Assembly: GCA_000611775.1 (NCBI GenBank)
Contig: KK106981.1
Coordinates: forward strand, 1 to 64,000
Reading direction: 5' to 3'
DNA from: Umbilicaria muhlenbergii
Taxonomy: Eukaryota; Ascomycota; Lecanoromycetes; Umbilicariales; Umbilicariaceae
Length of the DNA stretch: 64,000 nucleotides
In this document: positions 14,641-61,811 of the stretch, piece by piece
Numbering within the stretch: position 1 is the stretch's first letter
Layout of the letters: each line of letters starts with the position of its first letter
The notes under the pieces: model-generated
What the model saw: only the letters and a program-made list of their open reading frames with translations
Told to the model about the DNA's origin: nothing
The model's database searches: none
Translations under genes and position numbers: made by a program

Positions 14641-14659
14641 AATCAGTTTAAGAAAGATC

Positions 14660-42106: not shown

Positions 42107-43145
42107 ATGGACCTCGAGAAGAACAATCACAATGACAGCAGCATCGACAATGCCACCTGGGGTGAAAGTTCCCCGGATGCTACGAAATGGCTCCCCGGCA
42201 GCATTGGATCCCCACACCTCGATGGCGGACAGGTCGTTGATCCGATGGACCATGGTGAGGCCGAAGTGGTCAACATCCGCCAGGGCAACAAGATACTTAG
42301 GTCTCTTCGACACTTGGAGACGTGGTTGGATCGCAAGTTGAACTTCGAAGCCATGGGCGTCGAGCGCATCCCTGAGAACAAGCGCAACCCTCCACAGATC
42401 TTGAATGCAAGCACTCCCACATCCATCGCTGTACTCCCGCCGAATACAAGCTCACTATCATACCTACCAGATGATGTTCCTTTGGTTCTCCTTCTTGTTC
42501 AATCCTTCGCTCATCCCCATCGGAGTTCTTGGTCCGCTCTTTGGTCTTTCCGTGCACACATCTATCATTCTGACCGTCTTCGGAACGCTGGTAGGAACAC
42601 TGGTTCCGTCCTTTTCAGCAACGTTGTGTCCCCCCACAGGCTTTCGACAGATTGCCGTCTCTCGTTACGTGTTTGGGATCTGGGGTGCCAAGTTCTGCGG
42701 TCTCCTCAATATCGTAGTCAACGCTAAATATACTATCATTTCTAGTATATTAGGGGGTCAGTTGCTTTAAGCAATATCTGGCGGAAGTCTTCCGCTTGAA
42801 GTGGGGATTGTGATCATTGTGGCGATTGCATTTGTGATATCGTTCTTCGGGTTTGCCATTATTCATCACTATGAGCGGTATGCTTGGGTTTTTGCTCTTG
42901 TGCTACTTTGCGTGCTTTGGGGCCAGTCCGTCAGATACTTCTCTCCGACTCCTGGTCTTAACAGTCTTATCAGGATGGACTACTCTGGTGCTTGTTTAAG
43001 TTACTTTGCCGTGATGTTTGGCACTAATTGTTCCTGGTGTACTATCGCGGGTGACTACTACGTCCACTATCCTGTAAACACTAACAAATGGTTGATCTTT
43101 GGATTGACGTATGCTGGAGTGTCTATTCCGACCACTTTAAAGTAG
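42107..43145 (+). pseudogene. NCS1-type (purine/cytosine/allantoin class) permease, truncated and with a stop
   Basis: Starts MDLEKNNHNDSS. The N-terminal cytosolic region contains FEAMGVERIPENKRNPP, the conserved segment before the first membrane span. A 40-nt intron (42431-42470) or a frameshift leads into WFSFLFNPSLIPIGVLGP, the first span, then LFGLSVHTSII, SRYVFGIWGAKFCGLLNIV and IISSILGGQLL. A TAA at 42768-42770 interrupts the frame between GGQLL and AISGGSLP, which the family joins directly. The frame then continues through HHYERYAWVFAL and AGDYYVHYP before a stop at 43145. The C-terminal half, usually about 200 more residues, is absent, and the convergent decarboxylase ends 40 bp away. 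NCS1 proteins import nucleobases and related small molecules; this copy should not work. Confidence 0.8.
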
Positions 43146-43182
43146 ATCTACAATATACTCATAATTCAAGGTAAGAACTTCA

Positions 43183-44251
43183 TCACAACTTCCTCTTCGC
43201 CAGCAGTTTCTGTGCATTCCCCACCAAAACAGCCCTCCTCGTTTCCTCGTCCGGAAAAAGATCCTTCAAACCCTGCTCCATCTTCCCCACCAGCATCTCC
43301 ACCCCCTTCGCCGGCGTGTACGGATAGTCACTACCATAGAGCAGCCGGTCCGGCCCCACATATCTCAAGACGCCATGGATCTGATCCGGGAAGACAAACC
43401 CCGCCAAATCGAGGTAGAATTGGCGCCGCATGGTTTCCTTGACTATATCGGAATTGAGCTCGAACTCCAGTCCCAGTATCGACGTGGCGAAAGATGTGAA
43501 CCGCTCCACTGTCGGCGGGAGTGCTCCAGCCCCGTGCGAGAGAATAAATGTCACGTTCGGGCAACGCGCGACGGTCCCAGATAGGAAGAGATTGGCCACG
43601 GCGCGGGTGGTGTCGAAGAAGAACTCGAGCATGGGACTGGGGTATTGTTTGAGAGGCAAAGCAGCCTGGGGTCCACTCGGGTGCGCAATGCATGGCCCTG
43701 TCGGGTGGATGAACACAGTCGCCTTCCTACGTTCCAGTTCGGCAAATACAGGGTCGAAGGCCGCGTCGCCAAGATATTTGCCGTGGTGATTCGTCTCGAG
43801 CGCGATGCCGTCGGCGTGGAGCTCGTCCAACGCGTAGGCGACTTCGTCAAGGCTACCAGCAACGTCGGGCAGGGGTAGGGTGGCCCAGAAGCCGAATTGG
43901 GCGGGGCGGCGTGAGGCGACATCGGCAGCAAACTTATTGCAGTCCCGAGTGAGTTTGCGACCGGAGGCGTCGTCGCCGGGGGTGATGTGGGTGCCGGGGG
44001 AGGTGATGCTCAGGATGGACTTGGAGATGGAGAGCTTCTGCATGAGCTCGAGGTGGGTTTCTTCGCTCCATTGCTGCAGGGCGGTGTATCAATTCTGGTT
44101 GCTGTCGTAGAGGGGGCAAACGAGAGGTGTTGATAGATACCGGAATTGCAGGCATCCCATCGGGTTTGCCATGACCTGCTTGCTCGGAGGCGGTCCGCCA
44201 AAATGGTGGCACGAAGTGCGAGTGTGTATCGATTCTCTCTGAAAAGGACAT
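43183..44251 (-). CDS. Amidohydrolase-family decarboxylase, 6-methylsalicylate-decarboxylase-like
   Basis: Exons 44251-44141 and 44073-43183 (intron 67 nt) give 333 aa. It opens with RIDTHSHFVPPFW, carrying the metal-binding His-x-His, and continues GHGKPDGMPAIP then, across the intron, QWSEETHLELMQKL. Further family sites follow: SILSITSPGTHI, VFIHPTGP and LSHGAGALP (metal or catalytic His) and YGSDYPYTP (metal Asp). Layout and wording are those of the ACMSD-type amidohydrolases, closest in my reading to fungal 6-methylsalicylate decarboxylases (PatG/YanB type), which release CO2 from a 2-hydroxybenzoic acid to give a phenol. No polyketide synthase is in the window, so a catabolic role on an imported salicylate-type acid is likelier than biosynthesis. 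It is divergent from the alpha/beta hydrolase. All active-site residues are present. The exact substrate is inferred. Confidence 0.87.
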
Positions 44252-45483
44252 GGTGACGATGTTCAGATTTCTGGGCGAATCGCAGAAGTCGAACAGACCG
44301 CTGCTGGCAGGGCAGGTTAGACGACTGCGAAGATTACATAAGCCATTATCATCCTGCTTCTCCACGGAATGGCCCATTCTCCATCTTTCCCCTCTCCCCG
44401 CACTCGAGAGCGTGCTAGTCCACCGACGGGTGCATGCTCGCCATGATGCCGCCGGACGACAAGATGCGGAGCGGAGAAGTCCTGGCGGGGGCCAGTGAGA
44501 AGTTCCTGGATGTCCCACAGTCCCGCACGCTAGCTCAAGCATACATTCCTACCTTACCTTAGTCAGACCGAGAGCAAATCAAGAGCGCAAGTTCGGTGGG
44601 GATCTTATCGCATAGACTTTCGGTAACCCTTTTGACAAGTGTGGGGGCGAAGATCTTCACGTGGGGCGTCGGAAAAGATGCAGCGTGCCGTGGTACCGGG
44701 CGCCTCAGCCTTACCGGAGGGCTGCCATATTCCAGCCGGCCATGGCCCACGTGCCAGATTCCCTGGGAGCAGCTTGCATGCGTGGCGAACTCACTTCTTT
44801 CCTGATCCATAAAATTACTTCCAGCCTTTCAGTTCAGAGGCGACACAAACTTCATATTCACACCTACTAATTCATCCAACTTGAGCCCCAATGTCGCGTT
44901 AGCTTTTCGTGCATTCGTGGTGGTATTTTCCGTCGAGCTTACTCTCAAGGCGCGCTGATGATAATCCTTACCGAAGTAGACGCACCCCACTGAGCGACAA
45001 CGCGGGATGTGATCAGGCCGTAAACTCCGGAGAATTTATCAGCACCAAGCATCCCCGCACTATCACAATGCGAATCTTCCGACTCCACTTGATCAACACG
45101 CCATCCCGAGAACAAAATCCTTACTGGCATGTTCCCATAGAGTCGACAAACTATGCTGATAGCATGGACCATGGACCATGGCCTTCGTCTTCGTCGCCCC
45201 GCACTCCGCACCCCGCACCAGCCCACACCCGCCCCGTAGGAACTTGGTGGGAATGACAGGGGTAGAGGTCCAATGCTGTTGCTTACTCCCCGGTGCAAAC
45301 TTGTCCCACCCCTCCTCCGCTGAGGTCTATTCCATACGCTGCACCCAGACTTGATTCGATTGGTTATACATATGTGCACGATTGCCACACGCGATCACAT
45401 TCGAACGCACGTCTATCTCCAAACCTCCGTCGCCGATATACCATTCTGAGCTCTGCATCTCCGACCCATCTCCTCTCGCAGTC
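44252..45483. promoter_or_regulatory. Divergent promoter, decarboxylase and alpha/beta hydrolase
   Basis: A 1.2-kb gap between two divergent cluster genes. It holds TGTCCCACAG at 44511-44520, whose complement contains GTGGGACA, the word shared with two other cluster promoters. No gene of its own is seen, although long open frames cross it. Confidence 0.45.
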
Positions 45484-46314
45484 ATGCCTTTCAACGCCAC
45501 CGAGGCCACGGTGGAGAATGAAGGCTGTAACCTCCACTACTGGTACCAAGGCTCCGGACCTCTCTTAATCATGATCCCCGGCGGCAGTGGGCACGCCGCC
45601 CAATTCTTTCCCATCTTCGAATATCTTGACGCTTATTTCACAATCTGCACCTTCGACCGCCGGCAAATGTCCGCCAGCACCGTCAAAGAAAAAACCCAGC
45701 TGAATCCCGCCCAATCCGCCCGCGATGTCATCGCCATAACAAAAGCCCTGGGCAAAGAAAGAACCTCCATATTCGCCAACAGCGGCGGCGGAATCATCGC
45801 CTTCCAATTCGCCGTCAGCTACCCCGAAGCGCTCGACCACGTCATGGTGCACGAAGCCCCCACCACCATCCTCCTCGACGACGCGACCTACCACCTCGAC
45901 CGGGCCTTCATGCTTCTGGAGCTCTACCGCACGCGCGGCGCGCAAGCCGCGCGCGAAGCCTTCGGCACCGAAATGAAAGGCTACGAAGACGGCCCCGCCC
46001 TGGCGCTGCCGGACCCGGAGAACATGGACAACTTCTGGGCGCACGAGTTCATGCAATTCACCATCTACTGCCCGGACCTGCGGAAGATCGTCGCCAACGA
46101 CGTGTCGATCTCGGTGGTGGCGGGCGAGAAGAGTCGGGATGCGTTTTACGCGCGGACGACGTTCCCGCAGTCGGAGATCCTGGGGTGTCCGCGGTATGTG
46201 CTGCCGGGGAACCACAGCGGATATGAACTCGAGCCGGAAGCGTTCGCGCCGGCGTTGCTGAAGGCCTTCAATGATATGGAGAGCCGGAAGAAGATCTGGG
46301 GCCACGAGCTATGA
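45484..46314 (+). CDS. Alpha/beta hydrolase, candidate C-C or ester hydrolase
   Basis: Single exon, 276 aa from ATG 45484; an in-frame ATG at 45382 would add 34 unconvincing residues. Core alpha/beta-hydrolase features: GSGPLLIMIPGGSGHAAQF with the oxyanion-hole glycines, the strand-turn FANSGGGIIAFQFA with the nucleophile Ser in a G/A-N-S-G-G elbow, and VLPGNHSGYELEP with the catalytic His near the C terminus. In bacterial meta-cleavage routes an enzyme of this fold (MhpC, TodF, BphD types) splits the ring-fission product. The neighbouring extradiol dioxygenase makes that role plausible here, but the elbow differs from classic GxSxG, and lactone or ester hydrolysis is an alternative. GC-rich third positions and no breaks, so probably functional. 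Confidence 0.8.
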   Translation: MPFNATEATVENEGCNLHYWYQGSGPLLIMIPGGSGHAAQFFPIFEYLDAYFTICTFDRRQMSASTVKEKTQLNPAQSARDVIAITKALGKERTSIFANSGGGIIAFQFAVSYPEALDHVMVHEAPTTILLDDATYHLDRAFMLLELYRTRGAQAAREAFGTEMKGYEDGPALALPDPENMDNFWAHEFMQFTIYCPDLRKIVANDVSISVVAGEKSRDAFYARTTFPQSEILGCPRYVLPGNHSGYELEPEAFAPALLKAFNDMESRKKIWGHEL

Positions 46315-47165
46315 GTGGGGAGTCGCCGTGAGAAGGAAGGTGGATGTCTGAGGTCTTCGATGACCTGTGGCGAGGTGTTTGGACTTCGTTGTATTAGGTG
46401 AACAAGTGAAAAAGACGCTGGGCTTGGGGCATGATCTGGACGTTGCGAGGCCCAGCGTCATGGCAAGAATGAGACCTTGGTGGCTGTATGAGATCTCGAA
46501 TTTCAGGATTGCAGTTACGCTGCGAGGTCCCTAGGGGATGTTTGTATCGTCTTTGTAGATAGTGATTAACTCTGACTCCTTGGAAAAAGATGAGGTGGTC
46601 AGGTAGATGCTTTGAAGTCAACATTGCGATACTGCAGCTACTGATGACCGCGCCGTATTCCGAAGCAGGCGAATGTTACCATGTCTTTAGTGCAGAAGCA
46701 ATGCGTAGCCTCATGCAAAGGGATAAGGCACATGGCAGTGTTTAGCAAACACACTCTTGACAATATCAATGCTTTCGAAACTGAGCCTGGAGAGATCAAT
46801 GACCTCTATCGCCAGCGGTTGAGGGGATCTTCAAATGTCTTGCCGCTACTCCGCATTGGGTATACTTCAGATTGCTCACTGATCACTTACTAGGACATGC
46901 AGGTTCCTGTCAACCTTTAGGATGTCTAACTCACAGATTTCAGTCTTCTCGACCATGATAGGAAATGTTGCTTCAAGGCAATCAAGTAAGCACGATTCGA
47001 AAATCTATCGTGATCCATTCAGTCTAACTTCTAATAAAGAAAATTGACCGACACTAGATTATAAAATATAATATCCATCAAATGCAGTACCCCAGGTCGT
47101 ACCCGCAGCAATGCAACATTCCACTCCCATGAAACCGGATCCCGTTTACCATGCGTCCCGTCACA
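46315..47165. other. Convergent intergenic region, no gene seen
   Basis: Lies between the 3' ends of the alpha/beta hydrolase and the monooxygenase. Small open frames only; transcription terminators of both genes are expected here but I cannot define them. Confidence 0.4.
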
Positions 47166-49511
47166 TTAGATTTTCATCCTCATCTCAGCCCCCTCCACCC
47201 CCTCAAGCGTGCTCTCCAACAACGAGATAGCCCGCTCCAGCTCCGCCGCGTTCCGACATGCCGCGAAAACAAAACGATCCCATCGAACGATGACGTAAAC
47301 TTTATCGTGGCCCAGGTCTTTTCGGATGCGGTTCGGATCGTAGTACAAGGGCTCCGGGCGGGGGAATTGCTTCTCCAAAGCAGTCTTGGTGTGGCCAGCG
47401 GCAGTATACTCATCCGCGCCCAGCACGCGGATAATGTTCTCGCTAGGGATTTCTTTCCCGAGCAAAGCTGGCGCGTCACTGACGCTGGGGACCTCGCCAT
47501 GGACGATGTATGTAGTTTCTGCAGGGTCGAGAGTGAGCAAGGACTCGGGGTATTGGATGCGGGAGATGTCTGCTCGTGCGGAGTGGAATTGGTCAATGGA
47601 ATCAAGTAGCGCCACGATTTGGAAGATCCCAGTCTTATTCGGCGCGAAGATGGTGTCGTCCGTGAAAGTCGGGATAGGAGGAGCTGGGCCGTCTATAGGG
47701 GCGCTGAAAACCTGAGGGAAAGATTTCCCCCCCAGATACTCGGGCATAAATGGCATTCCCGGGGCGTAGTCGTACTTGGTCATACCCTCCCTCCGGGCGC
47801 CAAGCTGTAACTCATGTTTCCAGGAGGGAATGAGTTGGTACGTCCACAGATACCAATTGCGAATGAAGGCCTTGATGCGCGACGGTTCGTTGCAGAAGTT
47901 GCCGTTCTCGATGGTGGACGCGAGGGAACGTTCCAATTGCTGTTTACGTTCTGCGGCCCATCCTGCCAAGAGAGCTTCGTGTCTGGTAAACCCTGGTCGG
48001 ACTGCGACATTCAAGCGCCAAGCGAGGGATATAGCGTCTCTGAAACCGGAAGCAATGCCTTGGCCGCCAACTAAGTGGTAACAACTGCCTGTCAGAGATA
48101 TTTTCGCACTTATCTAGATATGGCCTGGGAATAGATACTTACAAGGTGGGAAAACATGAGCGGCATCACCGCACAGTACAACCCGGCCAAGGGACCATTT
48201 GTTGCAACTCCGTGCAGAAAAGGAGAAAGGCCTCGACCTTATACAATCGATGCAGTCAGGTGGGAACACCACGTCTTGAGAAAGCCTAATTCATATTAGC
48301 TACAAGGACGCTCTCATCTGGCAATGGCCCAATGGAAGATCTCACCCATATCGACTCCCACGATGTGTCAAGTAGGGGAATATGAGTTTTTGCGTCTCTT
48401 CTGGCGATGCCATCTTTTGGCCGTCTTCACCAGGTTTGATGACGAATTCGAACCGCCAAAGGCGATCTTCAGTCCGACCAAATCGGCCACACACCGCTGG
48501 CCGTGCCGGGTCGCATATGAAGTTAAACTCGCGGGGGAAGAAGAGATCGTAGACTTGTTCTGGAGTGTAGCCGAGTTTCCACAGGGGAAAGTCTGGGTGT
48601 GTCTCGGGCGTGGGCGGCGTAATATGCCAATTCAGAGCCACCCAGACAGCCTCGTAACGAAATCTGTTGTCACACCAGCGGTCAGAAATATGGGCCACTG
48701 GTAATCTCTTCAATCAACCCCGTGATTGCTTGCCTGTTGCTTTTCTCCATGAGAACGCCCCTAGGCTCTAGGTACTTCTTCCTCACGAAGCCTGTCTTGC
48801 CATCCGCGCCGACTAGAAATTTCCCACGAATTCTGCGCTCCTCACCACTATCATCCTTGCAATCGACATAGACATGGTCGGCGTCCTCCGATATGGCAGT
48901 GACTGTGGAGTGTGATCTCAGGGTTCCATATCTCTTGTCGATCTTCGACCGCAAATGTTTTTCCATGGCCGGCTGTTTGTGACACATGAAGCCCACATGG
49001 CCGGTCCCTCCTTCAATCTGTCGAGAACATCACCGGAATTAGTATTTATGATCCCTTTGAAGAGGATTCCTAGGGTGTCCTCACCGTGTTGTAATTGAAT
49101 TGTAGAAAGGGTCGGACATCTAGACCTCTACCTCCCTGGATGAATTGGAAAAAGCCCATCGCTATAGGAAAACGTGTTAGACACTGACTTGCACAAAGCT
49201 TGCATTTGCGTCGTTTCCAGGTGTCCGCAGTGGCTGTCCGCGATCCGCATCGAGTTTGGAGCGAGGGAGGTCCCAGGGAACTCACATTTACCCACGTCCT
49301 TGAACAACGCCTCGTAGATTCCAACGCCCTGCGCTATCCGAATGCCATCCTCGTCCAAAGCGATCCCCCTGGGATCCGTCGTGATATCTGGATCTCTCTC
49401 CAGAATGACATGATTAACGCGCAAGCGGCTCAAGTTGGCCGATAGCAGGGCGCCGGTAGGACCGCAGCCGCAGATGATCACATCAAAGGTATCAGTAGTA
49501 GTCGGAGACAT
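47166..49511 (-). CDS. FAD-dependent aromatic hydroxylase (phenol 2-monooxygenase family)
   Basis: Six exons on the minus strand: 49511-49286, 49161-49085, 49017-48734, 48663-48346, 48285-48143 and 48070-47166, making 650 aa. The dinucleotide motif GCGPTG at residues 15-20 binds the ADP part of FAD. FLVGADGKTGFVRK is the DG motif. LCGDAAHVFPPFGGQG is the GD motif that binds FAD ribityl and marks single-component class A hydroxylases. WVALNWHI, WKLGYTPEQVYDLFF and RPAVCGRFG are typical of the fungal phenol-hydroxylase group. Residues from about 450 on form the thioredoxin-like C-terminal domain of that group. The family adds an OH ortho to an existing phenol OH using NAD(P)H and O2. In this cluster it could turn the decarboxylase product into a catechol. 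Intron 3 (48664-48733) appears to be GC-AG. No stop or shift after splicing. Confidence 0.9.
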
Positions 49512-50525
49512 AGGTACTAGTCGGCGCAAGAAGAGCAGCAACAAGGTCAAGTTAAAGAAATCCTGTTAAAGCGGACACAGCAAAGATTCAAGCGCATCAA
49601 GATCAATTGCGCGGCGAGCGCAATCCAAGATAGTAAGTAAACACGATGCAGACACCCGTCTGGTTAGGCAGCTGGTCCAACTTTGCGGGGAAGTGAGGAC
49701 GAATGTGTCGTCAAGCCCAGTGGACCCATGATCGTTCGGCCTTTGGCGGAGAAGGAGTGACACGACAGGGGCGCTGGGCAGGCCTCTCCGTGCATTGGGG
49801 GCGATCCTGGGCTGGACCCAGAAGTGCGAGATAAGCAGCACGAAAAGCCTCGTGCAGGCGAAGCGCAACCTACAAGGCCTAGTGGCTGCGTATTCGGACT
49901 GCTACAACATCCGAAGAACGAGAACGGGCTCGGCTCTAGTGGGACAAGTTCCAGCAGCAGACTGAAGGCATGAGGTTCCCAATCGACGAAGCGGTACTGT
50001 TCGACCCACCGACTCCAGAAGGTATTTCCGTCCCACCCAGCCAAGAGCGGCGAGGAGAGCTGCTCGGTGTCCAGTGCATGACTAAGCTTTCTGCTCTCAT
50101 CCTCCACGTCCCACATCCCACCAGCCCACACCTTCTCTCCCGAAGGTGGGACATGTGCCACTCATCCAACCTGCGTCGCGCAACGATGGATGGAACATGC
50201 GGAAGACGGTCTGGCCAATCCCGCACCACCCTGCGTGGCAGCGGCCATCCCATTGGTCTCTGTCTTCGCCCTTCTCAGAGGCAGAGCACAAAGCTGCTCT
50301 TCGCACGTGATCCGCAGCGGGCGCCATAGGAGAGTAACCGGATTTAGGCTGTTCCATGCCATGCGTTGGGAGAGCGCACAGCTACAGCGATTATACTGGC
50401 CCACTTTGAATCCTTTGTGCTCTCCTGCTTGATGATACAAGACTCGTAATTTTCTTCCAGGAAATCACCTACTCACAGCTCTTCCCCTCATACAACCTTT
50501 GTGGCCACTCAATTATATCAGCACC
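49512..50525. promoter_or_regulatory. Divergent promoter, monooxygenase and FAH-family enzyme
   Basis: A 1.0-kb gap between divergent genes. It contains GTCCCACAT at 50108-50116 (complement ATGTGGGAC) and GTGGGACAT at 50146-50154, two facing copies of the word found in other cluster promoters. Co-regulation of hydroxylation and later steps is inferred from this. Confidence 0.5.
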
Positions 50526-51615
50526 ATGCCTTCTTGGACACACTTGATCCGCTTTGTCGCCGAGGAGGACAGCCAGCCACACATTGGGCAGCTGGTGGAC
50601 ACGAGCCGTGATGTTGGATTGGACACGTTTGAGGGCAAACCGGTTCGCGCCTACGACATCATCGGAACGATTTTTGATGGAGAGGTTACCAAGACCATCT
50701 TGACCGTCAAATACGTGAGCACTGAACCCAACCATCATCTTCTCCATCAAAGGCTGACTCCGTTTTTGCTTGCAGTTACTGTCACCGGTGGAGAGGGAGA
50801 CTTGCAACTACATTCGTTGCTTGGGACTAAACTACAAAGACCACGCCGAGGTAAAACACTATAATTCCCTCGCAGTAGACAGGTGACCATTGACTGACAT
50901 GGCGCAGGAAGCCAACCTCCCCCTGCCAAAAGCTCCAATTCTGTTCACAAAACCTCGATCCGCGCTTATCGGCCCATACCCTGCAGCCGTCAATATCCCA
51001 AAGTGCGCCCAGGACAACACCAGCGATTACGAGGCTGAGCTTTGTTTGGTGATTGGAAAGACGGGCCGGGATATCTCAGAAGAGGATGCATTGGACTACG
51101 TGCTGGGATATACGGCATCAAACGACGTCTCAGCAAGAACGATGCAACTGATCACTCCACAGTGGAGCTTCTCCAAGGGTCTTGACAGCAGTTGTCCCAT
51201 TGGTGAGCGCATGCGGGGCATCTGGATTTAAGAATTGCAACGCTGAAACCACCCAGGCCCCGTGCTAGTCTCGACGTCTGTCATCCCAGACCCACAGACA
51301 TTGGGAATCAAGGCATTGTACAACGACGCTGTCGTACAGGACGGCCACACCAGGTAGCTATTCTCGAACCCGACAATGATATCAATCCAAGCATATGAGC
51401 TAATGGAGGGCAGTAACATGATCTTCAACATCCGCAAGCAAATCTCATATCTCTCGCAAGGCACGACTCTGGAGGCAGGTACCATCTTCCTGACGGGTAC
51501 GCCAGCCGGCATTGGTTTCTTCCGCAAGCCGGCCGTTGTCCTCGAGGACGGTGGGGACATTCGGGTTCAGATTGACAAGATCGGGACGCTGATCAACATG
51601 GTTCGGTATGAATGA
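50526..51615 (+). CDS. Fumarylacetoacetate-hydrolase-family enzyme (hydratase or acylpyruvase type)
   Basis: Exons 50526-50714, 50776-50850, 50908-51202, 51257-51353 and 51414-51615 give 285 aa. Introns are 54-61 nt and every join is in frame. Family motifs: CLGLNYKDHAE (rebuilt by introns 1 and 2), PILFTKPRSALIGP, DYEAELCLVIGKTGRDI (metal-binding acidic residues), DYVLGYTASNDVSAR, QWSFSKGLDSSCPIGPV, GHTSNMIFNI and LTGTPAGIGF. The family uses Mg2+ and covers fumarylacetoacetate and acylpyruvate hydrolases, oxopent-ene-dioate decarboxylases and the 2-hydroxypentadienoate hydratases of meta-cleavage pathways. Beside an extradiol dioxygenase and an alpha/beta hydrolase, handling of the ring-fission product is the natural guess. 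It sits 0.8 kb upstream of the transcription-factor gene on the same strand. Confidence 0.9.
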
Positions 51616-52414
51616 AGCCTGAGATCATGGCCCCACGGACGTCATTCAGAAGGAGAAAGCAAGCGGGATAGATGGAGTTCGCGGTACTCGTGTTGGATGC
51701 AGAAATGCCAGAGACATTTGCTTGGAGCTGCTGGAGGTCACTATTGTTTGGGAGACCCTGTGTATCAACATGCCACGCGTATAGACCAATCAACCAAACT
51801 GCCATACCGTGCCACCATATAGATGCTACTGGATACACCCACAAGCTGTTCCCCGCGCAGGATGTGCGAGTGAGCGACTGGAGTTGCTCAGATCATACAG
51901 ATGCTCGAGATGGACGCCATGGCTCGCCAGGCTTCCGTGGCTTCCCAGCCGGAGAAACGATGGTCCTCTCCGTGGCCGCGCTGACTAAGCCCCCACATTC
52001 TGCAGCTCCCTGCAGCTGTCGCCCGGCGCTGGGCCTCTCCCCAGCTTCCACATCTCGCCTGTCTTCTTTATTTCCGAGGCCACCTTTTCCAGCCAACCGC
52101 CAGACGCCGGATGCCAGACGCCGGATGCCAGACGCCTCATACCAGACGCCTCATGCCTGACGCCAGACCGACACCTTAGACTCGAGGCCGTCCAGTCACG
52201 CGTCCAAGTCGACTCTTAGCCTCCGACGAGGCTACCGCTACCGCTACCCGAAACTCCTCCAAACCTCTTTGTCGGTACTCGTACTAGCCTTGTATGGTCC
52301 AGGATTCAGATCAAACATCCCAACCTAAGGTACCGGCGATAGTCAATATCTTCGCCCCGATCGACCGCCCTGTCATGGAACTCGGGCTTGGTGTAATAAC
52401 CAACACCTCTACAC
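51616..52414. promoter_or_regulatory. Upstream region of the transcription factor, with a minisatellite
   Basis: About 800 bp without a gene. Near 52101-52165 a GC-rich word of 14-15 bp, CAGACGCCGGATGC, recurs four to five times (variants CAGACGCCTCATAC and CTGACGC), probably in the leader of the regulator gene. I did not see the GTGGGACAT word here. Confidence 0.5.
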
Positions 52415-55222
52415 ATGGCATCGACAACGAGATCCGGCACTAAGCGCAAAAGCTCACGCACACCTCTCGAAAGCGGAGATAGCAATGGCGACGCTGGCGT
52501 CGTCCGTACTACCAAGGAGCGCCGATGCGTCTTTTGCGACAGGTCCTTCACCAAAACAGAGCACCTGCTAAGGCATGAGCGCAGTCACACCAAAGAGAGG
52601 CCATTTCGTTGCACGCTTTGCGGAAAGGTCTATAGTCGACAGTAATGTGCCCTGTTCCATCAAGTGGCTTGGAAGTGCGGCGATCGTTTGCTGACCCTGT
52701 TGCCCTAACCAGTGATACCCTGCTCCGACACTGGAAATCGCATAGTCTAGGAGGTGATCCGCCCAACAAGGGCATGAGTCAGGTTCCGACAATGGATGAT
52801 GCGGGAGGCCTGCCCGCCTTTCACAATGGTGTGGACGGCGAGGGTATTGCTATCACTCCAGCTGTCTCCAACGTCGACCTGGACGGCCAGACGAGTGTTA
52901 CGAATAGCCACCAGTCACACCAATCGCCGACGGATCGGCTTACTACTTCCAATGCTACTCTGAACGGTACTTCGTCGCATGGAGCTTCGCAGAGTCATGA
53001 CATGGTTGCATCGGTAGGGTACCCCATACACGACAACGTCAGCAGCTCGTCTCGAGGTCCCGAACGCGCTATGTTTGGGCAGGATATCACGGTTCAAGGA
53101 CAAAGCCAGCAAACGCAGCTTATTCCGGCCGATTTTTCGATGCCTTTGGGCGACCATAACCACGTATCACCACTTTCCAACGATAATCTCTGGGGAGCTT
53201 CGATTATGTCGCCCGGTCCGTCGTGGCTGATTGGCTACGACTTCGACCTTGAAGCATTGAATTCCGCGTCGACTGTTCCGGCCACAATGGAAATGGGTGA
53301 ACCTCTATTCCAGCCTCACATACCCTTCAATGTTATGCCAAACATACTCGAACCGGACTCATCGAGAAGGACCGGGATGCAAAGGAGGCCAAGGCCTATC
53401 AATGACATAGTGAAGAAATCGTGGTTCAGCCAGACAGAGGACATGGAGGATGAAGAAGACAGTCACAGAGTTGCCGCCACAGGTCAAACAACACCAGCTA
53501 TCGGCGCCAATCAGTATGATGTCGACGATAATTTCCGCACGAGGGTGTCTCTGAAGCTCAAACCGCGCACAAACGACGATCCTTTGCCGTCAAACAACTT
53601 TCTTAACTTGTCTGTGCAGATGTACTTTACAAAGTTTAACACGGTCTTTCCCGTGATCCACGGACAGACGTTTCGCCCAACTCCAAAAAATTCCCTTCTT
53701 CTACTATCAATCTGCTCGGTAGGCAGTCTACTCATTGGCTCCAAAGGAGCCGCCGCTCAAGGCGTAAGGATATTCGAAAGGCTCAACAAAGCGATCCTAG
53801 CTTCTTGGGAAACCACAGTGCTGAGCGATCCTTCTGAGGCCTCGTCGATGATTCAAGCTGCCTTAATCGGACAGACCTTCGGCTTACTTTCCGGTGATGC
53901 GAAGCACCTCGCAATCGTTGAATCCTTCCACGGTACTGTCGTTGCTTGGGCGCGCCGGTGTAACATGTTCAGATACCGCAGCGATATTCCCCAAGTTGAC
54001 GGCCTGACTGGCGCGGAAGTGGATCATGCGTGGAAGGCATGGGCGAGATCTGAAGAGACAGTAAGGTCGGTCGTCCTCTACCCATGACTTATGCAAAGGC
54101 ATCAAGTGACGATGCTATAGGACCGTCCTTGGCCTTTACATACACGACGCTGAACTTGCGAGTATGTTTCATCATGAACCTCTCCTTCGTCACGATGCTG
54201 TCATGGTTTCCGCTGCCGCAGATGACAGCTTGTTCAATGCACCTACTGCAAGCGCTTGGCGTGATCAAGTGCGGCTTCAAGCACATTCAAGACCACTCAT
54301 TCACGAGATCCTCCATGCGAACCTCCGTCTTCACAACTGCTCCAATCCACTCCCTGAAGAGCTTATCTGCAAAGGTAGTCGTTTCACTGCCTATGTCATC
54401 CTGCATGGGATCTCCGCCAGCATCTGTGAGAAGCAACAGATGGGCCATCTCAATCCAGCCTTCACCGACTTTGGTAAGTATTCGGACGCTCTGATGTGCT
54501 GGTATTTCACTTTTGAAGTGAACAGAAGCAACCCGGGTACCAATGAGGTCAATCCTCAATCGGACACCTTCTGCCTCATGATCCTCTGGCATACTGTTTT
54601 CATGAATCTCCTTGCAAACTTTGATACCCTTGAGCGAGCGATCGGACGCGACGGACCAGAGACTACCTCGGCATCCGAAGACATTCGATACGCCATACAA
54701 TGGGCGAAGTCTATCGAAGCGCGGCGTTGTATTTTTCACGCCCACGCCCTTCAAAACGCCCTAGGCACGATGCGGTTGGATACCGAGCCGGCAATCCATA
54801 TCCCGCACTGTCTTTTCCTCGCCGGCATCGCGAGCTACTGCTTCACGCGGTTCCGCCGCTGGCCGTCAATGGACTTGATGTCGCCTCCAGACGCCGCGGC
54901 CGAATCCCAGGTCGAACCGGCCTTGAACTTCCCCGAATTCAGTCTCCGCGGTGCCCACATACCCAAGCATCTCTTCGGTATCACTTCCGACGGCGCGTCT
55001 TTTGCGACGGCGAACAATGCTGGAGGTTACGGCGCAGATGGGGAGCAACAGCAGCAAGGTCGGCAGCGCCCCGGCCGCGTTGTGCCTGTGGGTGCGGGCA
55101 TGCTGTGTACACTTACGGACATGCTACAGCGAGTCGGACACTGGGGCATCGCGCGGAAGTTTGCCGGGACCTTGGGGACTTTGGTACAGGCGGATACGGA
55201 AGAGAAATGGATGCTGGGGTAA
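52415..55222 (+). CDS. C2H2 zinc-finger transcription factor with fungal_trans domain
   Basis: Exons 52415-52641, 52713-54065 (or 54060) and 54121-55222, about 893 aa. Two C2H2 fingers lie near the N terminus: [21 protein letters not shown], then [21 protein letters not shown], the second rebuilt over intron 1. A basic patch TKRKSSR precedes them. A Ser/Asn/Gln-rich linker of about 250 residues follows, then the fungal-specific transcription-factor middle domain starting around [22 protein letters not shown]. It includes the characteristic [22 protein letters not shown], read across intron 2. This two-finger plus fungal_trans layout is common for pathway-specific regulators. Central position in the catabolic cluster suggests it controls these genes, possibly through the GTGGGACAT word. 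The donor of intron 2 is uncertain by five bases. Confidence 0.9.
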
Positions 55223-55584
55223 TGCAAAAGAGCTCAAGGCAAGGAGCATGTTGGCGTTATAGCACCAATGACAGCTTAACGGAATAATGGGTAAAAGGGC
55301 TTTGCTGAGTAATAGAACTCTTATGATACCAAGATGTGAGCAGCATCAATCGTTTTCTAACTCGCTATTCAAATCGGTGTTTACATTGCGACTCAAGTGA
55401 CACAGCACGTAGATGACGCAACTAGAGAAGAGCCGTTGGCTAGGATGCGGTCCAGCTCACTGACGCAGGTTGCTGACGCATTGGTTACACCAGTCGATTG
55501 GAAGACCGCCCAAACTACCTATGGAACAAGCGCATTGCATCAACCTCCGAAATCCAACTCCTCCCCAGACTCGAGCGATCCAAC
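55223..55584. other. Convergent intergenic region
   Basis: Between the 3' ends of the regulator and the dioxygenase. Nothing recognisable; shared terminator space. Confidence 0.5.
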
Positions 55585-57017
55585 CTAATCCAGGAAATCC
55601 AGCGGAAGCTCCGGACCCCACACGGCGAGCGACTCGCTGCCAGCCGGGCCCAATCCAATCGGCGTCTTGTTATTAACCGTATCACCATCCGTATAATGCT
55701 GCCGCAGTCCTCGTCAGCAAGCCCCCTTCCACCTGCGCACCTCCCCAGTCCCCAACGAGGCAACGAACTCACCTCGATCATAAACCCGGTCGGATCCCAC
55801 CAATAGTCAAAGATCTGGGACCCGAGGATATGCCTGCCGACCCCCCAGACGGACTTGTAATTCTTCGACGCCAACCACTTATGCCCGAGCAACTGGGTAT
55901 CAAAGTCGTGGATCTCAAACGACGAATGATGCACATGGCTCGTCGGCGCCTTCCCCATGAAGAAAGAATGATGATCCACGTATTCCTCCCCGCGATCCAC
56001 GTGCGCGAAAAACGCGACCTCCTCCTTCCCGCCCTCCTCCCCTTCCTTATCCACGCGCATGAAATCCGAGGGCACGAGATTGAAAGTCCGCGTATACCAC
56101 CTGATCTGCTCCTGTATATCGGAAACGCACAGCCCGTAATGGCCGAGTTTATGGACGGCGGCGGGGCCGTCGTGGAAGCGTTGGAAGGCGCCTTCGCGGA
56201 TTTTCTCCTTTTCGGTGTTGTAGACGAGTTTTTGGGGGAGCTTGCCGGTTTCGGCGGGGGTTTGGCCAAAGATTAGGTTGACGGGGAAGCCTTCGGGGTC
56301 GGTGAGGGTGAGGCGGTAGCCGCCGCCGGGGGCGTCGGTGAGTTCTTCGATGGGGCCGGCGTTAGGGAGTTTGGTTGCTCTGCGGGGAGGGGGGCGGGGG
56401 AGTCAGTTCCGTGGTAAGTGCGTAGGGATGTAGGAGGTTCCTTGTCCACGCGTGGGGACGTGTTGAGGAGGACACTTTGACGGGGATACTTTGACGTGGA
56501 CACATTTCGACAGGAAGACGTTCGACGGGAAGACTTACTTCTCCAACTCCTCGTAGCTCTCGACCGTCCACGCGCCACCCAGGAACTTCTTCTCCGGTCC
56601 CTTCTCCACAACGTAGACGTATGGCTCGGAGCTATAGCCTCTAAACCAGATTTTATCGTCGGTCCTCTTGGCAATGTGCATGCCAAAGTCGAGGAGGAAT
56701 TGGGTGATGGCGTTGAGATCCGGGTGGACGTATCGCATGTGGCTTAGACGCAGCAGCCGGATCTGCTTGCTCTCGTCGATTTGCTCGCGTTTCTTCCAGT
56801 CGTCGATGGCAAGACGGTCCCAGCCGGCCATCTTCATGGCTTCGGGGGCATCGAGTGAGTAGCCCTCGTTGGGGGTCGCTCCGGCGATGGTGGAGGCGAT
56901 CGACTGGGGTTGGTGCGCCCATGTTAGCTATGAGGACGACGCTTGGGGTAAAGGATGGTCTGATGTCGAGATAGGTGCTCCAGGCATCATGGCACAGAAT
57001 CGAGGTGAGCTTACCAT
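55585..57017 (-). CDS. Type I extradiol (catechol 2,3-type) dioxygenase, VOC superfamily
   Basis: Minus strand. Exons 57017-57015 (ATG only), 56903-56539, 56379-55773 and 55698-55585 give 362 aa. Two glyoxalase/VOC domains: the N-terminal non-catalytic one begins IRLLRLSHMRYVHPDL; the C-terminal one begins VHKLGHYGLCVSD. The iron ligands of type I extradiol enzymes are in place: His in LGHYGL, His in SHVHHSSFEI, and Glu in FMIEH, the last split between exons 3 and 4. GRHILGSQIFDYWWDPTG corresponds to the conserved GRHxxxxxxFxYxxDPxG run. The C terminus, DTVNNKTPIG...LAVWGPELP, is typical of fungal members. It would open a catechol ring beside the two OH groups, using Fe(II) and O2. The ATG-only first exon rests on a good donor (ATG/GTAAGC) and acceptor (CCCCAG); a start at 56837 is the alternative. 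It shares a promoter with the MFS gene. Confidence 0.9.
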
Positions 57018-58091
57018 GGTGAGGTCGTTCAGTAGAGCAGTATGAGTAAGGTACGGTAGATTGTCAGAGGTGTTGCAACAGTGCTGGCCTGTTCAATGGA
57101 GCGTCGCGGTGTATATTGCTACGCTCCTCGAACATGAGCACGAGCATGATGGCAATCATGATCAATCATGATAATCACACAGAGGCAAGCCTCGAGGAAG
57201 GCCGGAGCGATGCAGCCAATCAGGCCTTGCTGCCCCGCTCCGCAAGTCTGGCATGTCTCGTGCTTGCAGCGACTCGGACTAATACGAAGAGTGGCGCAAG
57301 CGGGGGGGTGCCACTGGCGCCAAGTGGTGTGAGCAGAGCCCCTTCCCGCCGACCCCATTCGCCCCGACCCTGCATCCCACTACGCCGGGCCCGACCCCAC
57401 GCCCGTCACCCCCCACCCCACCCGAGCCAGCACTCTCCCGCCCTCCCCATGCGAGTCGAGCATTCGACATCGCACTTGCATGAACGCGTACTTGCAGGTA
57501 TGAAAGAAGAATAAGACCCTCGCTTATTGGAACGTTACCCATCTCGATCACGACTGCTTAACTTGTCCCGGTGGAAACTTCTGCATTCGATGGAACTGAC
57601 CACGTACGAGGCACCCCTCAAGACCAGTGCTCACCCACGCTGCTTCGAGCATGTGGGACATTGGATGTGGGACCCCAAATGCGCAATGCGGGCCCTCGGC
57701 GCTGGGCATCAAACGCTACTCTACCGAGTAAACAAAAACATCCTTTGAGATGTGGGACGTCGGCGATGGAGCAGCTAGAAAGCTTTGAAGCCGCCTCATT
57801 AAGGTTTATCCATCGGAAGCCTCATTGTGGGGAAATGGAGACATCCCCGGCGCGATCAAGATCGGACGTGGCTCCAGACTCTCCAATCTCTCGCATGCAC
57901 CTACCCCGTACCCCAGACCCCATGGAGTCAAGCTCGAAAGGAGGCCTGCCAAAGAGCAACAGATAACTTGCAGGCCTCCCTGCACGAGAAGACAACCATC
58001 CACGGAAATCTCAGCGGGCCTACACCCTCCCACTCATCCTTCTCTGTCCCTTGTCCATCTCTATCTCCACGAGCACGTCGACCCCGTGACC
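57018..58091. promoter_or_regulatory. Divergent promoter, dioxygenase and MFS transporter, with three ATGTGGGAC words
   Basis: 1.07 kb between divergent genes. ATGTGGGAC occurs at 57651-57659, 57665-57673 and 57750-57758, all on the plus strand, the first two 14 bp apart. The same word or its complement lies in the other two divergent promoters of the cluster. No gene of its own. Confidence 0.55.
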
Positions 58092-59768
58092 ATGAACGAC
58101 AGGGACATCAAGATGGCGCCTTCTAACCATATCGAGCAGACGGACATCACCAACATCCAAACCCACGAGGATGGCGTCGATCCCGCCAAGATGAAAGCCA
58201 CGGGCTACATGATGTTCTTCTGTGCCTGGATTTCCTTTGCCGCATGGATCGCCAACTTCGACTCCGGTTACGGCGGTATCGTTCTGATCATGCCTTCGTA
58301 CAACAAGGCATTTGGCCATTGTGGCATGGCCCCGAACCCGGAAACAGGCGAACTGACGATGATGTGCCAACTCACCGCAACGCAGCAGTCGCTCATCAGC
58401 GTCGGTTCTCTTTTCATGGCTCTCGGGGGTGCCCTCGCCGGTGTCACGGGTAACTACTTCGGCCGTCGAGGTACCATCCAATTTGCGTGTGTCCTCCTGA
58501 TTGTCGGTGCCGCTGGGATGCTGGGCACGTCCGGTAGCTTCTTGAACTACATGGTCTGCAAGTGCATCAGTGGTGTCGGTATCGGTCAACTGTTGGCCTC
58601 CAGCATCGTATACGGCGCCGAATGCTGTGCCGCCAGCAAGCGAGGCTTGATGATGGGTCTTTACAACGTCGGACTCGCCCTGGGCAACGTGTCTGCTGCG
58701 GCCGTCTGTGCAGGTTCCGGATTAGGGTTCAAGATCACAAACGACTGGCAATGGAAGACTCCCATCATCTGCCAGATCCCTCTTGGTCTTCTCCTCGGCG
58801 TCGGCGTCATGATGTTCCCTGAATCGCCGCGTTGGCTCTTGACAAAAGGCAAGGAAGAAAGCGCGCGCCGGTCCTTTGGAAAGTTCTACAAACTGGATCC
58901 TTATTCTCCGGAGATCACAGCGCAAGTAGTCGACGTACAGACATACATCGAACTCGAAAAAGCCCAGGGAGCAACGACATCATGGACGGAGATTTACCAC
59001 AAGAACGACATCCGCCGCACTCTCGTCTCCGTCATGATCTTGGTCGGACTCGCAATCACGGGTGTCCAATTTGTTGCGCCCTACGCTGCTCTCTTCCTCA
59101 GCCAATCCGGCATTAAAAACCCCTACCTCATCAACGTCATCATCGGCCTGTGCATCTTCGCCGGCGCTTTCCCCGGCCCCTTCATTCTCGAATACGGCGG
59201 TCGACGCTTTGCCATGCTGGTGGGATACTCGCTCATGGCGCTGTGCATGCTGGTTTTTGCCGCCGTCAGCACCGGCCTCGGAGCGACGAACCCGATCGCC
59301 AAGAACGTCCTGGTGGCCTTCCTGTGCATCTGGGCCTTTGTCTTCGGAGGATGCATCGGCTCGAGCGTCTGGCTCGGGTCGGCCGAGATGCACTCGGTCC
59401 GCCTCCGGACCTATGGCCAGGCCAACACGACCTTTTTCTACCAAATCGTCGGCTTCGGCGCCACCTTCTGGACGCCGTACATGCTCAGCAAAGACTACGG
59501 CAACATGGGCACCAATGTCGGGTATTTCTATTTCGGAGTCACCATCGTTGTGCTTATTCTCACATTCCTCTTCGTGCCCGAGACCGCCAGATTGACGCTC
59601 GAGCAAATCGATGACTACTTCACGTCGGGCCGCAAGGCTTGGCAGACTTCTACCCGGCGGAACAAAATGATTGCGAACGGTAATACGTATGATATTTCCC
59701 CGGAAGCGCACGAACGTATGATCCATAATATGGAGGAGAAGACCGGACACCATGTCGGGGCTATGTAA
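58092..59768 (+). CDS. MFS transporter, sugar-porter family
   Basis: Single exon, 558 aa from ATG 58092. The frame is open further upstream, but those residues lack membrane content and run through promoter sequence. Twelve membrane spans fit. Sugar-porter landmarks: NFDSGYGGIVLIMP after span 1, GNYFGRRGTIQFACVLL (the G-R-R signature between spans 2 and 3), SGVGIGQLLASSIVYGAECC, FPESPRWLLTKGKEESAR before the central loop, EYGGRRFAML between spans 8 and 9, and FVPETARLTLEQIDDYF after span 12. Fungal members carry hexoses, quinate or other hydroxylated acids. Divergent from the ring-cleaving dioxygenase with shared promoter words, so uptake of the aromatic substrate or a relative is a fair inference. 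It may replace the dead NCS1-type permease at the other edge of the cluster. Confidence 0.92.
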   Translation: MNDRDIKMAPSNHIEQTDITNIQTHEDGVDPAKMKATGYMMFFCAWISFAAWIANFDSGYGGIVLIMPSYNKAFGHCGMAPNPETGELTMMCQLTATQQSLISVGSLFMALGGALAGVTGNYFGRRGTIQFACVLLIVGAAGMLGTSGSFLNYMVCKCISGVGIGQLLASSIVYGAECCAASKRGLMMGLYNVGLALGNVSAAAVCAGSGLGFKITNDWQWKTPIICQIPLGLLLGVGVMMFPESPRWLLTKGKEESARRSFGKFYKLDPYSPEITAQVVDVQTYIELEKAQGATTSWTEIYHKNDIRRTLVSVMILVGLAITGVQFVAPYAALFLSQSGIKNPYLINVIIGLCIFAGAFPGPFILEYGGRRFAMLVGYSLMALCMLVFAAVSTGLGATNPIAKNVLVAFLCIWAFVFGGCIGSSVWLGSAEMHSVRLRTYGQANTTFFYQIVGFGATFWTPYMLSKDYGNMGTNVGYFYFGVTIVVLILTFLFVPETARLTLEQIDDYFTSGRKAWQTSTRRNKMIANGNTYDISPEAHERMIHNMEEKTGHHVGAM

Positions 59769-60740
59769 GGTTTTGCAATGGGTTCAGGAGCGGCTGGTTG
59801 AAGGGGGATCTTTTGTTTATATGCACTGGGGGCTTTTTTGTGTAAATGGGAAAGAGGTTACTCGGTACATATGTACATAACTTGAACTTGACGTTCAGGC
59901 GTCAATGCCGCAGCTAAAAATCGGCGTTGTAGATAGCAGTGTAGGGGCTGTTATATACTCTGGTATCTGTATGACAATTTTGGGGACCAGCTGTCTATGT
60001 GCTGATGACTCAAATGGATGAGGAATTCTTTTACTCACGCGCGTGAAAGAACATCTAAGCTAATCAAAGCATTCAAGCATATTTTGCGGGAGACTTCTTG
60101 GTACCGTAGAAGTGAGTAGTGAGGTGGCGCATGATAGAAGACTTCATGTAGGTTTAGCCCTGTAAAAAGGGTGCAGGTGGGATTGCAATTGTGTATTAAA
60201 AGAGGTAGATAACAAGCCGGAACAAACGCTATTGAAAAAAGAGGAACTTCAAATATGAAGTATTTCAGAATGTTTCTCGCCCGCTGAATAAACTGAAACA
60301 GACTTCAAAGCAGTGGTGCTGCAATTCTTGGTTCTAAACGAAGCTGAGAGGGTAAAGTATGGTGATAGGCTGGCTATGTAGGGTTGTGCCCCTCGCTAAG
60401 AAGTCTGTCATGTGACTGGCTTATGGCGAAGACGGACGAATCATCCTCTGTGTATAGCACTTATTCGATTAGTATTTGAGGATGTGCGTTTCTTTTTCTG
60501 GGATTTGACGACATCACAAAGGGTAGAGTGCAAGTACACTCGGAATTCCGGTGTACGCAATATTGATTCGTTCCCAGGGTCCGCCAGTCGGGTAGCCAAT
60601 CCATGCCGATTTGCCCTGCGTGCTGGCCCTGCAGTTGATTTCCAATCATGCCGCTCATGTCACCGTGACCTTGCAGCTGGACCCTGAGAGTATCTGTAGA
60701 AAAGTCCCAATGATACCAGAATACTACTACAATAGCTACC
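59769..60740. other. Intergenic, no gene seen
   Basis: 3' end of the MFS gene and promoter of the NmrA-like gene. No recognised repeats; I did not see the GTGGGACAT word. Confidence 0.45.
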
Positions 60741-61811
60741 ATGTTCAAAACAATAACCGTCGTCGGCGCGACTGGCACACAGGGTGGAGGAGTCGTAAAA
60801 GCACTGCTCAAAGAGGGCTCATGGAAGATCCGCGGCATCACCCATAACACCAGTAGCGATAGTGCAAAAGCCCTCGCGTCCCAGGGCGTGGAAATGATAA
60901 GCGCGAACCTCGACGACGCGGAATCGTTGGCCAAAGCCTTCAATGTAAGCATACTGGCGACCCATCCGCCCATCTTCATTAGCGATTAACCACCGTCGCG
61001 AAGGGAGCCCATGCCATCTTCGCCGTGACCAACTTCGGCGACACCCACCCCCCCGACCGCGAAGGCGAGATCGAATACAGCCAAGGCGTCACGATAGCCG
61101 AGGCAGCGGCCTTGACGCCAACCCTGGAGCACTACATTTGGAGCACACTCCCTAGCGGCGAGGTGGCCACAGGAGGGAAGATACGGGTTCCGCATGCGGA
61201 CTTCAAAGCTAGAGTCGACGAGTATATTAGACAGAAGCTGCCGGAGCTGGCGAAGAAAACGACGTTTCTCTGGATGGGGTTTTATGCGACGAATTTGGCA
61301 TATTATCCTCCGCTGAAGCCTACATATCTGGTGAGTGCGGGGGGCATCCGTGTGGCACTCACTTCTTGATGCGGGACTGCTGACGATGTGCCAGGCCACA
61401 GCGAATAAATACATCTGGATGCACCCCTGCTCCCCGCAGACGATACTGCCGATCAATGGGGCACCCAGCACGAATGCCGGGATATATGTCCGCGCCATCC
61501 TCGCTCAACCGCAGGTCACTCTCCCCGCACGTTATGTCTTCATCCAAACCGATCCCTTGAGCATAGCCGACACAATGAAGGTATGGTCCAAGGTCACTGG
61601 CAAAGAGGGTATGTGTGTGGAAGTCTCGCTAGAGGATTGCGATAAGCTTTGGCCGGCATTTGGGAAGGAGTTGGGGCTGCAACTGCAGTTTAACGAGATG
61701 GTGGGGGACTTGAGTAGCACCAGGGAAGGAGTTTTGGGAGCGGTTGATTTGGGCGTGGAGGGGGAGGTGGTGAGGCTTGAGGAGACGCTGGAGGGGATGG
61801 TTTGGGATTGA
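60741..61811 (+). CDS. NmrA-like NAD(P)-binding protein
   Basis: Exons 60741-60944, 61004-61330 and 61395-61811 give 315 aa. N-terminal Rossmann motif ITVVGATGTQGGGVVKALL (G-A-T-G-x-x-G), then WKIRGITHN with the basic residue that favours NADP. GAHAIFAVTNFGD follows, as in NmrA and the related HSCARG redox sensors. LEHYIWSTLPSG corresponds to their conserved middle. The C-terminal half (YVFIQTDPLSIADTMKVWSKVTG) also matches. The catalytic Tyr-x-x-x-Lys of short-chain dehydrogenases is not evident, so it is a sensor or atypical reductase. In Aspergillus NmrA restrains GATA factor AreA; here it might tune the cluster or act as a reductase in it, both unproven. Introns 59 and 64 nt. Confidence 0.88.

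Follow-up and report, generated by a model that had tools for sequence, protein, structure and literature searches.

A putative co-regulated gene cluster for type I extradiol ring opening in the fungus Umbilicaria muhlenbergii

A way of opening aromatic rings that is well known in bacteria has hardly been described in fungi. A 64,000-nucleotide stretch of Umbilicaria muhlenbergii DNA (assembly GCA_000611775.1, contig KK106981.1, C1:1-64000, hereafter the window) carries eight intact genes at 43183–61811, among them a gene for an extradiol dioxygenase, and three divergent pairs of these genes share a promoter heptamer. The genome searched comprises 34.8 Mb in seven contigs. An earlier reading of the window from its letters alone (the original prediction) had proposed an extradiol aromatic degradation cluster here; the present analysis follows up that proposal.

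Gene set and enzyme families

After hand-splicing, each of the eight genes forms one open frame. With their Pfam matches, they are as follows.

43183–44251, minus strand: AMH, amidohydrolase/ACMSD-superfamily decarboxylase-like protein, 333 amino acids, exons 44251–44141 and 44073–43183 (Amidohydro_2, 1.5e-33)
45484–46314, plus strand: ABH, alpha/beta hydrolase, 276 amino acids, single exon (Abhydrolase_1, 6.9e-11)
47166–49511, minus strand: FMO, class A FAD monooxygenase, MhpA-like, 650 amino acids, six exons (FAD_binding_3, 7.9e-36)
50526–51615, plus strand: FAH, fumarylacetoacetate-hydrolase-family hydrolase, 285 amino acids, five exons (FAA_hydrolase, 1.3e-62)
52415–55222, plus strand: ZNF, regulator with two C2H2 fingers and a Fungal_trans domain, 893 amino acids, three exons (Fungal_trans with zf-C2H2)
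55585–57017, minus strand: EDO, two-domain type I (VOC) extradiol dioxygenase, 370 amino acids, four exons, exon 1 being the ATG alone (Glyoxalase/dioxygenase, 2.8e-09)
58092–59768, plus strand: MFS, sugar-porter-family transporter, 558 amino acids, single exon (Sugar_tr, 9.3e-71)
60741–61811, plus strand: NmrA-like protein, 315 amino acids, three exons (NmrA, 2.2e-46)

The gene families and intact frames named in the original prediction were thus recovered by splicing and Pfam, save for two enzyme labels. The span that it gave does contain all eight genes; position 42107, where that span begins, is the start codon of a disrupted NCS1 permease gene, which the original prediction did not name. 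The FMO gene contains a GC-AG intron at 48733–48664.

The central enzyme, EDO, aligns across both type I modules with solved members of the group. The NCBIfam models for HpaD, catechol 2,3-dioxygenase, and biphenyl-2,3-diol dioxygenase span both of its domains at scores below their equivalog cut-offs (for HpaD, 1.3e-17 over residues 59–338, with 64 bits against a 321-bit cut-off). A profile built from EDO and 11 bacterial homologues matched 28 distinct solved sequences at an E-value of 1e-5, including 3b59 (2e-35), homoprotocatechuate 2,3-dioxygenase (HPCD), HsaC, BphC, and catechol 2,3-dioxygenase (XylE). Across 38 sequences, residues H211, H267, H268, H282, R313, H314, Y323, and E333 are invariant; from BphC and HPCD, we take H211, H282, and E333 to be the metal ligands and H267/H268, H314, and Y323 to be catalytic. 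An AlphaFold model of exon 3, the catalytic part of 202 residues, reached a pLDDT of 89.8 and returned 412 PDB matches; the top 50 consist entirely of VOC extradiol enzymes and their close relatives. All sequence and fold tests applied place EDO among the type I extradiol enzymes, and the three iron ligands claimed for it at the outset correspond to H211, H282, and E333. As a query, EDO finds one match in its own genome.

AMH combines PF04909 with the HxH, H, H, and D positions of the ACMSD/amidohydrolase decarboxylases, carried in the motifs DxHxH, FIHP, SHGAG, and GSDYPY, to which we presume the usual metal-binding roles. It scores 154 bits with 2f6k, 66 with 5-carboxyvanillate decarboxylase, and 57 with ACMSD, as against 26 with salicylate decarboxylases; the label "salicylate-type" is not supported by this comparison. 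The second label to fall is "phenol-type" hydroxylase. FMO shows FAD_binding_3 and a sub-threshold Lycopene_cycl match as its only Pfam domains, and the absence of the dimerization domain PF07976 (Phe_hydrox_dim) speaks against a phenol 2-monooxygenase. Its best family model is that of the 3-(3-hydroxyphenyl)propionate/MhpA group (208 bits, below the cut-off of 390).

FAH, expected by the original prediction to be a hydratase, resembles instead the DRhm hydrolase, HpaG, and FAHD1, with H86 and E89 within an NYKDHAEE motif. No similarity was detectable (E 3.9) between it and the FAH-family gene neighbouring DmpF and DmpG in the Rhodococcus fascians locus L102. On the strength of this lack of alignment, the hydrolase/HpaG-like character, and the absence of a DmpE match from the genome, we reject the hydratase assignment. 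ABH is an alpha/beta hydrolase as foreseen, although its scores with the BphD and HsaD carbon-carbon hydrolase families (28.7 of 462 bits and 26.5 of 400 bits) stay below both cut-offs.

A shared promoter heptamer and its candidate regulator

The pairing of divergent promoters noted in the original prediction is confirmed for AMH/ABH, FMO/FAH, and EDO/MFS, and the heptamer GTGGGAC recurs in all three intergenic regions. These regions and the permease remnant, which follows another copy, are listed below.

44252–45483, between the genes: AMH/ABH divergent promoter, GTGGGAC twice
49512–50525, between the genes: FMO/FAH divergent promoter, GTGGGAC four times
57018–58091, between the genes: EDO/MFS divergent promoter, GTGGGAC three times
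42107–43145, plus strand: NCS1-type (cytosine/purine) permease remnant, with an in-frame TAA at about 42768 and the 3' half missing

GTGGGAC was first spotted by eye, and a 7-mer scan run afterwards, for words present in all three divergent promoters with at least four occurrences, ranked it first. There are nine copies in the 3.32 kb of the three promoters, compared with 22 in 220 kb elsewhere in the same genome (Poisson P ~1e-10); in a control with random triples of stretches of at least 45% GC, one in 300 was equally extreme. Because the heptamer is common to the divergent pairs, the grouping of the genes exceeds chance, and the co-regulation proposed for the cluster is borne out at the level of this promoter element.

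The window contains 12 GTGGGAC sites, of which those at 42020, 38886, and 63943 lie outside the three promoters. The first is 87 bases upstream of the ATG of the permease remnant, which is probably a lost member of the cluster; one piece of the remnant matched PF02133 at 6.5e-11 when the pieces were run as separate Pfam queries.

The two fingers of ZNF carry K/H/R and R/T/R at positions -1/3/6. Under the C2H2 recognition code, they would presumably favour G-N-G-G-G-A/G, which is compatible with GTGGGA and is offered as a lead only. The three divergent promoters are probably under the control of ZNF, acting through a putative interaction with GTGGGAC.

Around the cluster, several other features were observed. 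Directly upstream, 40366–40911 encodes a fungal rhodopsin-domain membrane protein (PF20684, 2.4e-38). Directly past the cluster, 63065–63973 and positions 1146–2555 of locus L005 may be parts of a hybrid histidine kinase: in the L005 part, a response-regulator domain was recognized at 3.9e-19 and HATPase matched weakly, and the window part has DUF4057 only, below cut-off. Farther upstream, 4001–22000 is an AT-rich block of ~29–40% GC adjoining sequence of ~45–55% GC, and a frame at 30337–30864 resembles, by eye, a reverse transcriptase fragment of a copia-type retrotransposon.

Bacterial relatives and the origin of the dioxygenase

A tblastn search of plasmids with EDO matched 127 records, all below 60% identity and the best at ~37%; from the 40 rows listed, 13 loci were chosen and examined. 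An FAH gene lies within 9 kb of the EDO homologue in all 11 annotated loci (L007–L013 and L016–L019), and tblastn located one in each of the two unannotated loci, L014 and L015. An FAD hydroxylase adjoins the pair in L007, L013, L016, and L019. The linkage recurs in genome contigs. An initial bacterial genome scan with EDO alone had given 247 pattern matches and no relative; the contig search yielded at least 593 relatives, and the best 80 were kept, in loci totalling 1.45 Mb. One of these (L022) is fungal and 79 are taken as bacterial. FAH homologues occur in 63 of the 80 loci, 59 of them within 1 kb and 61 on the same strand; FMO homologues occur in 46, some of them as weak or short matches (~47–54 bits), and both together in 42. 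When the count is restricted to the 55 loci with a length of 20 kb or more, 47 have FAH, 36 have FMO, and five have neither (L022, L032, L035, L048, and L081).

For comparison, ten of the same genomes (65.7 Mb) gave 61 match rows for FAH and 37 for FMO, so that ~1.4 and ~0.8 (the latter computed by hand) would be expected in 1.45 Mb. The ratio is approximate, as the loci were searched by tblastn at E 1e-5 on 1.45 Mb and the background with other scoring and per-genome E-values; the background rows also include the EDO loci themselves, and one gene may count twice. When positions were compared by hand, the genome-wide best FMO match fell inside an EDO locus in six of the eight genomes with any match; for FAH, this was so in three of ten. 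No other genomes of the ten have EDO relatives as close as those three (L021, L024, and L026). The same enzyme classes are thus genetically linked in bacteria, which indicates a bacterial family of VOC genes beside FAH genes.

AMH was followed in the same way on plasmids, where 20 of 210 matching records were listed and 14 loci examined (12 in addition to L017 and L018); five of the 12 are unannotated over the stretch and were searched by tblastn alone. The AMH homologues are 37–47% identical to the fungal protein, and VOC and FAH genes accompany them in six loci (L017, L018, L100, L102, L104, and L109). L100 contains FAH, EDO, FMO, and AMH homologues in one row on the same strand; the EDO homologues of L100 and L018 are 23–28% identical to EDO. 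In L111 from Bosea sp. Tri-49, the stretch 9249–14210 carries an AMH homologue together with NmrA-family and MFS genes and no annotated VOC dioxygenase.

The one other fungal relative, L022 (NYXK01000232.1), is filed in a deltaproteobacterial metagenome-assembled genome but looks fungal, with spliced genes and a Zn2Cys6/Fungal_trans gene. The neighbours of its spliced EDO homologue are two FAD aromatic hydroxylases and the Zn2Cys6 regulator. In a tree of dioxygenases, the L022 and U. muhlenbergii sequences group with a support of 1.0; this pair joins a Pseudomonas/Azoarcus/Cupriavidus group at 0.609, and the combined group joins two Microcystis sequences at 0.925. The tree contains two fungal sequences, was rooted on one distant VOC protein, and includes L022 with intron sequence in the alignment; within these bounds, it hints that EDO may be of bacterial origin. 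Intradiol dioxygenase matches occur at three places in the U. muhlenbergii genome; therefore, the fungus has the usual intradiol route as well.

Proposed pathway, alternatives, and known systems

With high confidence, we regard the gene set as real and as encoding one regulated extradiol pathway. The following route is proposed, in an order of steps that we infer. MFS would import a hydroxylated aromatic acid, or ABH would free the acid from an ester. AMH would decarboxylate the acid to a phenol, most likely of the resorcinol or orcinol type; this substrate class is a reasoned guess to which we give a little less than an even chance. FMO would add a hydroxyl group to yield a trihydroxyarene (or a catechol), EDO would open the ring beside the vicinal diol, giving an acylpyruvate-like 2,4-diketo acid, and FAH, perhaps with ABH, would hydrolyse this acid to pyruvate and a short acid. 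ZNF would drive the genes from the three divergent promoters through GTGGGAC, and the route would do without a hydratase, an aldolase, and an acylating aldehyde dehydrogenase.

The placing of AMH before ring cleavage admits an alternative. ACMSD decarboxylates a ring-fission product and LigY cleaves one, and AMH could likewise act after ring opening, with the ring substrate keeping its carboxyl group until cleavage. The scores with ACMSD and 5-carboxyvanillate decarboxylase, well above those with salicylate decarboxylases, and the DxHxH start are consistent with such a role, as is the company of VOC and FAH genes in six of 14 loci. Linkage gives no order of action, however, and related enzymes also decarboxylate aromatic acids such as 5-carboxyvanillate and gamma-resorcylate. 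We consider this late role rather unlikely. A fungal 3-hydroxyanthranilate cluster with ACMSD also uses a different dioxygenase, 3HAO (PMC7842363).

The end of the pathway was approached with queries from L102, namely the FAH-family gene beside DmpF, the acylating acetaldehyde dehydrogenase, and the DmpG aldolase. We call the first a hydratase because DmpF and DmpG are its neighbours; its record names the FAH family only. In the 80 EDO loci, the hydratase and the acylating dehydrogenase were matched in none and DmpG in one; the dehydrogenase search was confined to these loci. In the fungal genome, an exon-wise search with the DmpE model (TIGR03220) gave no match (control: one of 14 genomes, none over cut-off), and the DmpG model (TIGR03217) gave four, the best with 48 of 286 bits (control: 14 of 14, none over cut-off); both searches are modest in power, as introns split matches. 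The hydratase and aldolase of the classical meta pathway were thus not recovered above cut-off in this genome. An acyl-CoA synthetase occurs in 33 of the 80 loci. A malonic-semialdehyde-reductase-like gene occurs in eight, all among the closest EDO relatives (L020, L021, and L023–L028), which suggests that the bacterial pathway yields malonic semialdehyde. When an extradiol enzyme opens a 1,2,4-type trihydroxyarene, the product is a 2,4-diketo acid. An acylpyruvate hydrolase can split such an acid, releasing pyruvate together with either an acid or malonic semialdehyde; this split would explain both the linkage of FAH and the reductase. The lower pathway of the bacterial gene family would differ from the textbook one. 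Since the genome has no hydratase match and no aldolase above cut-off, and the loci have none and one, respectively, the aldolase whose absence the original prediction had regarded as a gap is probably not needed. That the pathway runs by hydrolysis rather than by hydratase and aldolase seems to us rather likely.

These searches also bear on a classical catechol meta-cleavage, in which an acid would pass through phenol and catechol to a semialdehyde or ketone, ABH would be the carbon-carbon hydrolase, FAH a hydratase, and the aldolase and aldehyde dehydrogenase would be encoded elsewhere. EDO does match catechol 2,3-dioxygenase models, ABH is weakly like meta-cleavage-product hydrolases (BphD at 28.7 bits; 4lxg), and in L102 the AMH homologue has FMO, alpha/beta hydrolase, VOC, FAH-family, DmpF, and DmpG genes for neighbours. 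Yet the VOC protein of L102 is only 19% identical to EDO and its FAH-family gene cannot be aligned with the hydrolase-type FAH. Together with the lower-pathway results from the genome and the 80 loci, this makes the classical scheme quite improbable.

Fainter still is the prospect that the cluster degrades an N-heterocycle or another non-benzenoid diol instead of a phenolic acid. The promoter motif before the broken NCS1 permease gene would fit such a substrate, as would two bacterial loci with genes labelled cytosine permease and one with molybdenum-hydroxylase-type and RidA genes beside VOC and FAH; on the other hand, a homologue of the L016 permease is found in none of the 80 loci, and MhpA-like hydroxylases and homoprotocatechuate-type dioxygenases indicate phenolics. 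A biosynthetic tailoring cluster is highly improbable: extradiol cleavage is reported for fungal biosynthesis, as with AlfB in allantofuranone (PMC12105029), but inspection by eye of the long frames of 38–84 kb showed neither a polyketide nor a peptide synthase, and the FAH hydrolase and sugar-porter MFS suit catabolism better.

We therefore return to a co-regulated fungal catabolic cluster with type I extradiol ring opening and a finish by hydrolysis, in which we place moderate confidence. Several observations weigh against it. The promoters of ZNF and of the NmrA-like gene contain no GTGGGAC, and the membership of the latter is uncertain for that reason. At L022, no FAH or AMH match was found in 21 kb; thus, the full set is not conserved there. 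Among the 80 loci, AMH homologues occur in four, ABH, MFS, and NmrA have no match, the main FMO matches are only ~23–29% identical, and a non-acylating-type aldehyde dehydrogenase lies near EDO in 12. Eight of the 14 AMH loci examined have no VOC-FAH pair, and the VOC proteins of L102, L104, and L109 bear only a remote likeness to EDO. Overall, the clustered and probably co-regulated extradiol pathway of the original prediction stands, and its phenol-type, salicylate-type, and hydratase/aldolase chemistry is not supported. Genes for every step of a plausible type I extradiol route sit side by side and share a control element, so that one gene set suffices to test the route.

The dioxygenases that open gentisate, homogentisate, and 3-hydroxyanthranilate are cupin-type enzymes. 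FAMeDB distinguishes eight fungal central aromatic pathways, and the words "extradiol" and "meta-cleavage" do not occur in its main text (PMC13094099). The present cluster shares with these pathways the catabolism of hydroxylated aromatics with ring opening as the central step; unlike it, they open gentisate, homogentisate, and 3-hydroxyanthranilate by other dioxygenases. As a tentative proposal, which we hold to be somewhat less probable than not, the cluster may represent a ninth such route, in which decarboxylation and then hydroxylation would lead to a trihydroxyarene, a type I extradiol dioxygenase probably from bacteria would cleave it, and FAH would hydrolyse the product, all under one C2H2 regulator acting via GTGGGAC. 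In the open-access literature, including work on orcinol and resorcinol, no comparable fungal cluster or route was found described.

Extradiol enzymes are called rarer in fungi in one report (PMC12388069), and several sources argue against a broad claim of novelty: fungal gentisate cleavage has been called extradiol (PMC8283699), catechol 2,3-dioxygenase activity has been assayed in fungal cultures (PMC7247547), AlfB performs extradiol cleavage within a fungal biosynthesis (PMC12105029), and Cladophialophora immunda carries a transferred xylJ-like hydratase gene (PMC5595782). Because such reports exist, the novelty lies in a type I enzyme inside a whole linked pathway and not in extradiol cleavage per se. 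CDO3 of the Ceratocystidaceae is, like EDO, a fungal extradiol dioxygenase; unlike EDO, it belongs to another family, the LigB-type class III (IPR004183), and the whole meta-cleavage pathway could not be found in that study (PMC8896014).

Among bacterial systems, the classical meta pathway (dmp/xyl/mhp) likewise has a hydroxylase produce a vicinal diol for extradiol cleavage, but the U. muhlenbergii genome lacks a DmpE match and a DmpG match above cut-off, and its FAH is of the hydrolase type. Closer in gene content are the clusters of VOC, FAH, and MhpA-like genes in Burkholderia multivorans (L016), Rhodococcus qingshengii (L013), Microvirga (L007), and Cupriavidus sp. P-10 (L100), in which homologous dioxygenase, FAH, and FAD hydroxylase genes adjoin; L100 additionally shares an AMH homologue (47%). 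These differ in their bacterial regulators, in the acyl-CoA synthetase of L016, and in an EDO identity of 24–38% across the four. The nearest described counterpart, and one studied by experiment, is HcdABC of Pseudomonas mandelii 7HK4. There, HcdB converts a trihydroxyphenyl acid into 2,4-dihydroxy-6-oxonona-2,4-dienedioate, and hydrolysis of this product is reported for the FAA-family HcdC, in a reaction left open in its exact form (PMC6222606). The fungal cluster shows the same linkage of a class A FAD hydroxylase, a type I extradiol dioxygenase, and an FAA-family hydrolase, and by analogy its substrate would be a trihydroxyarene and its ring-fission product a diketo acid. HcdABC is a bacterial three-gene operon without decarboxylase, alpha/beta hydrolase, or fungal regulator, and the likeness considered here is one of enzyme class.

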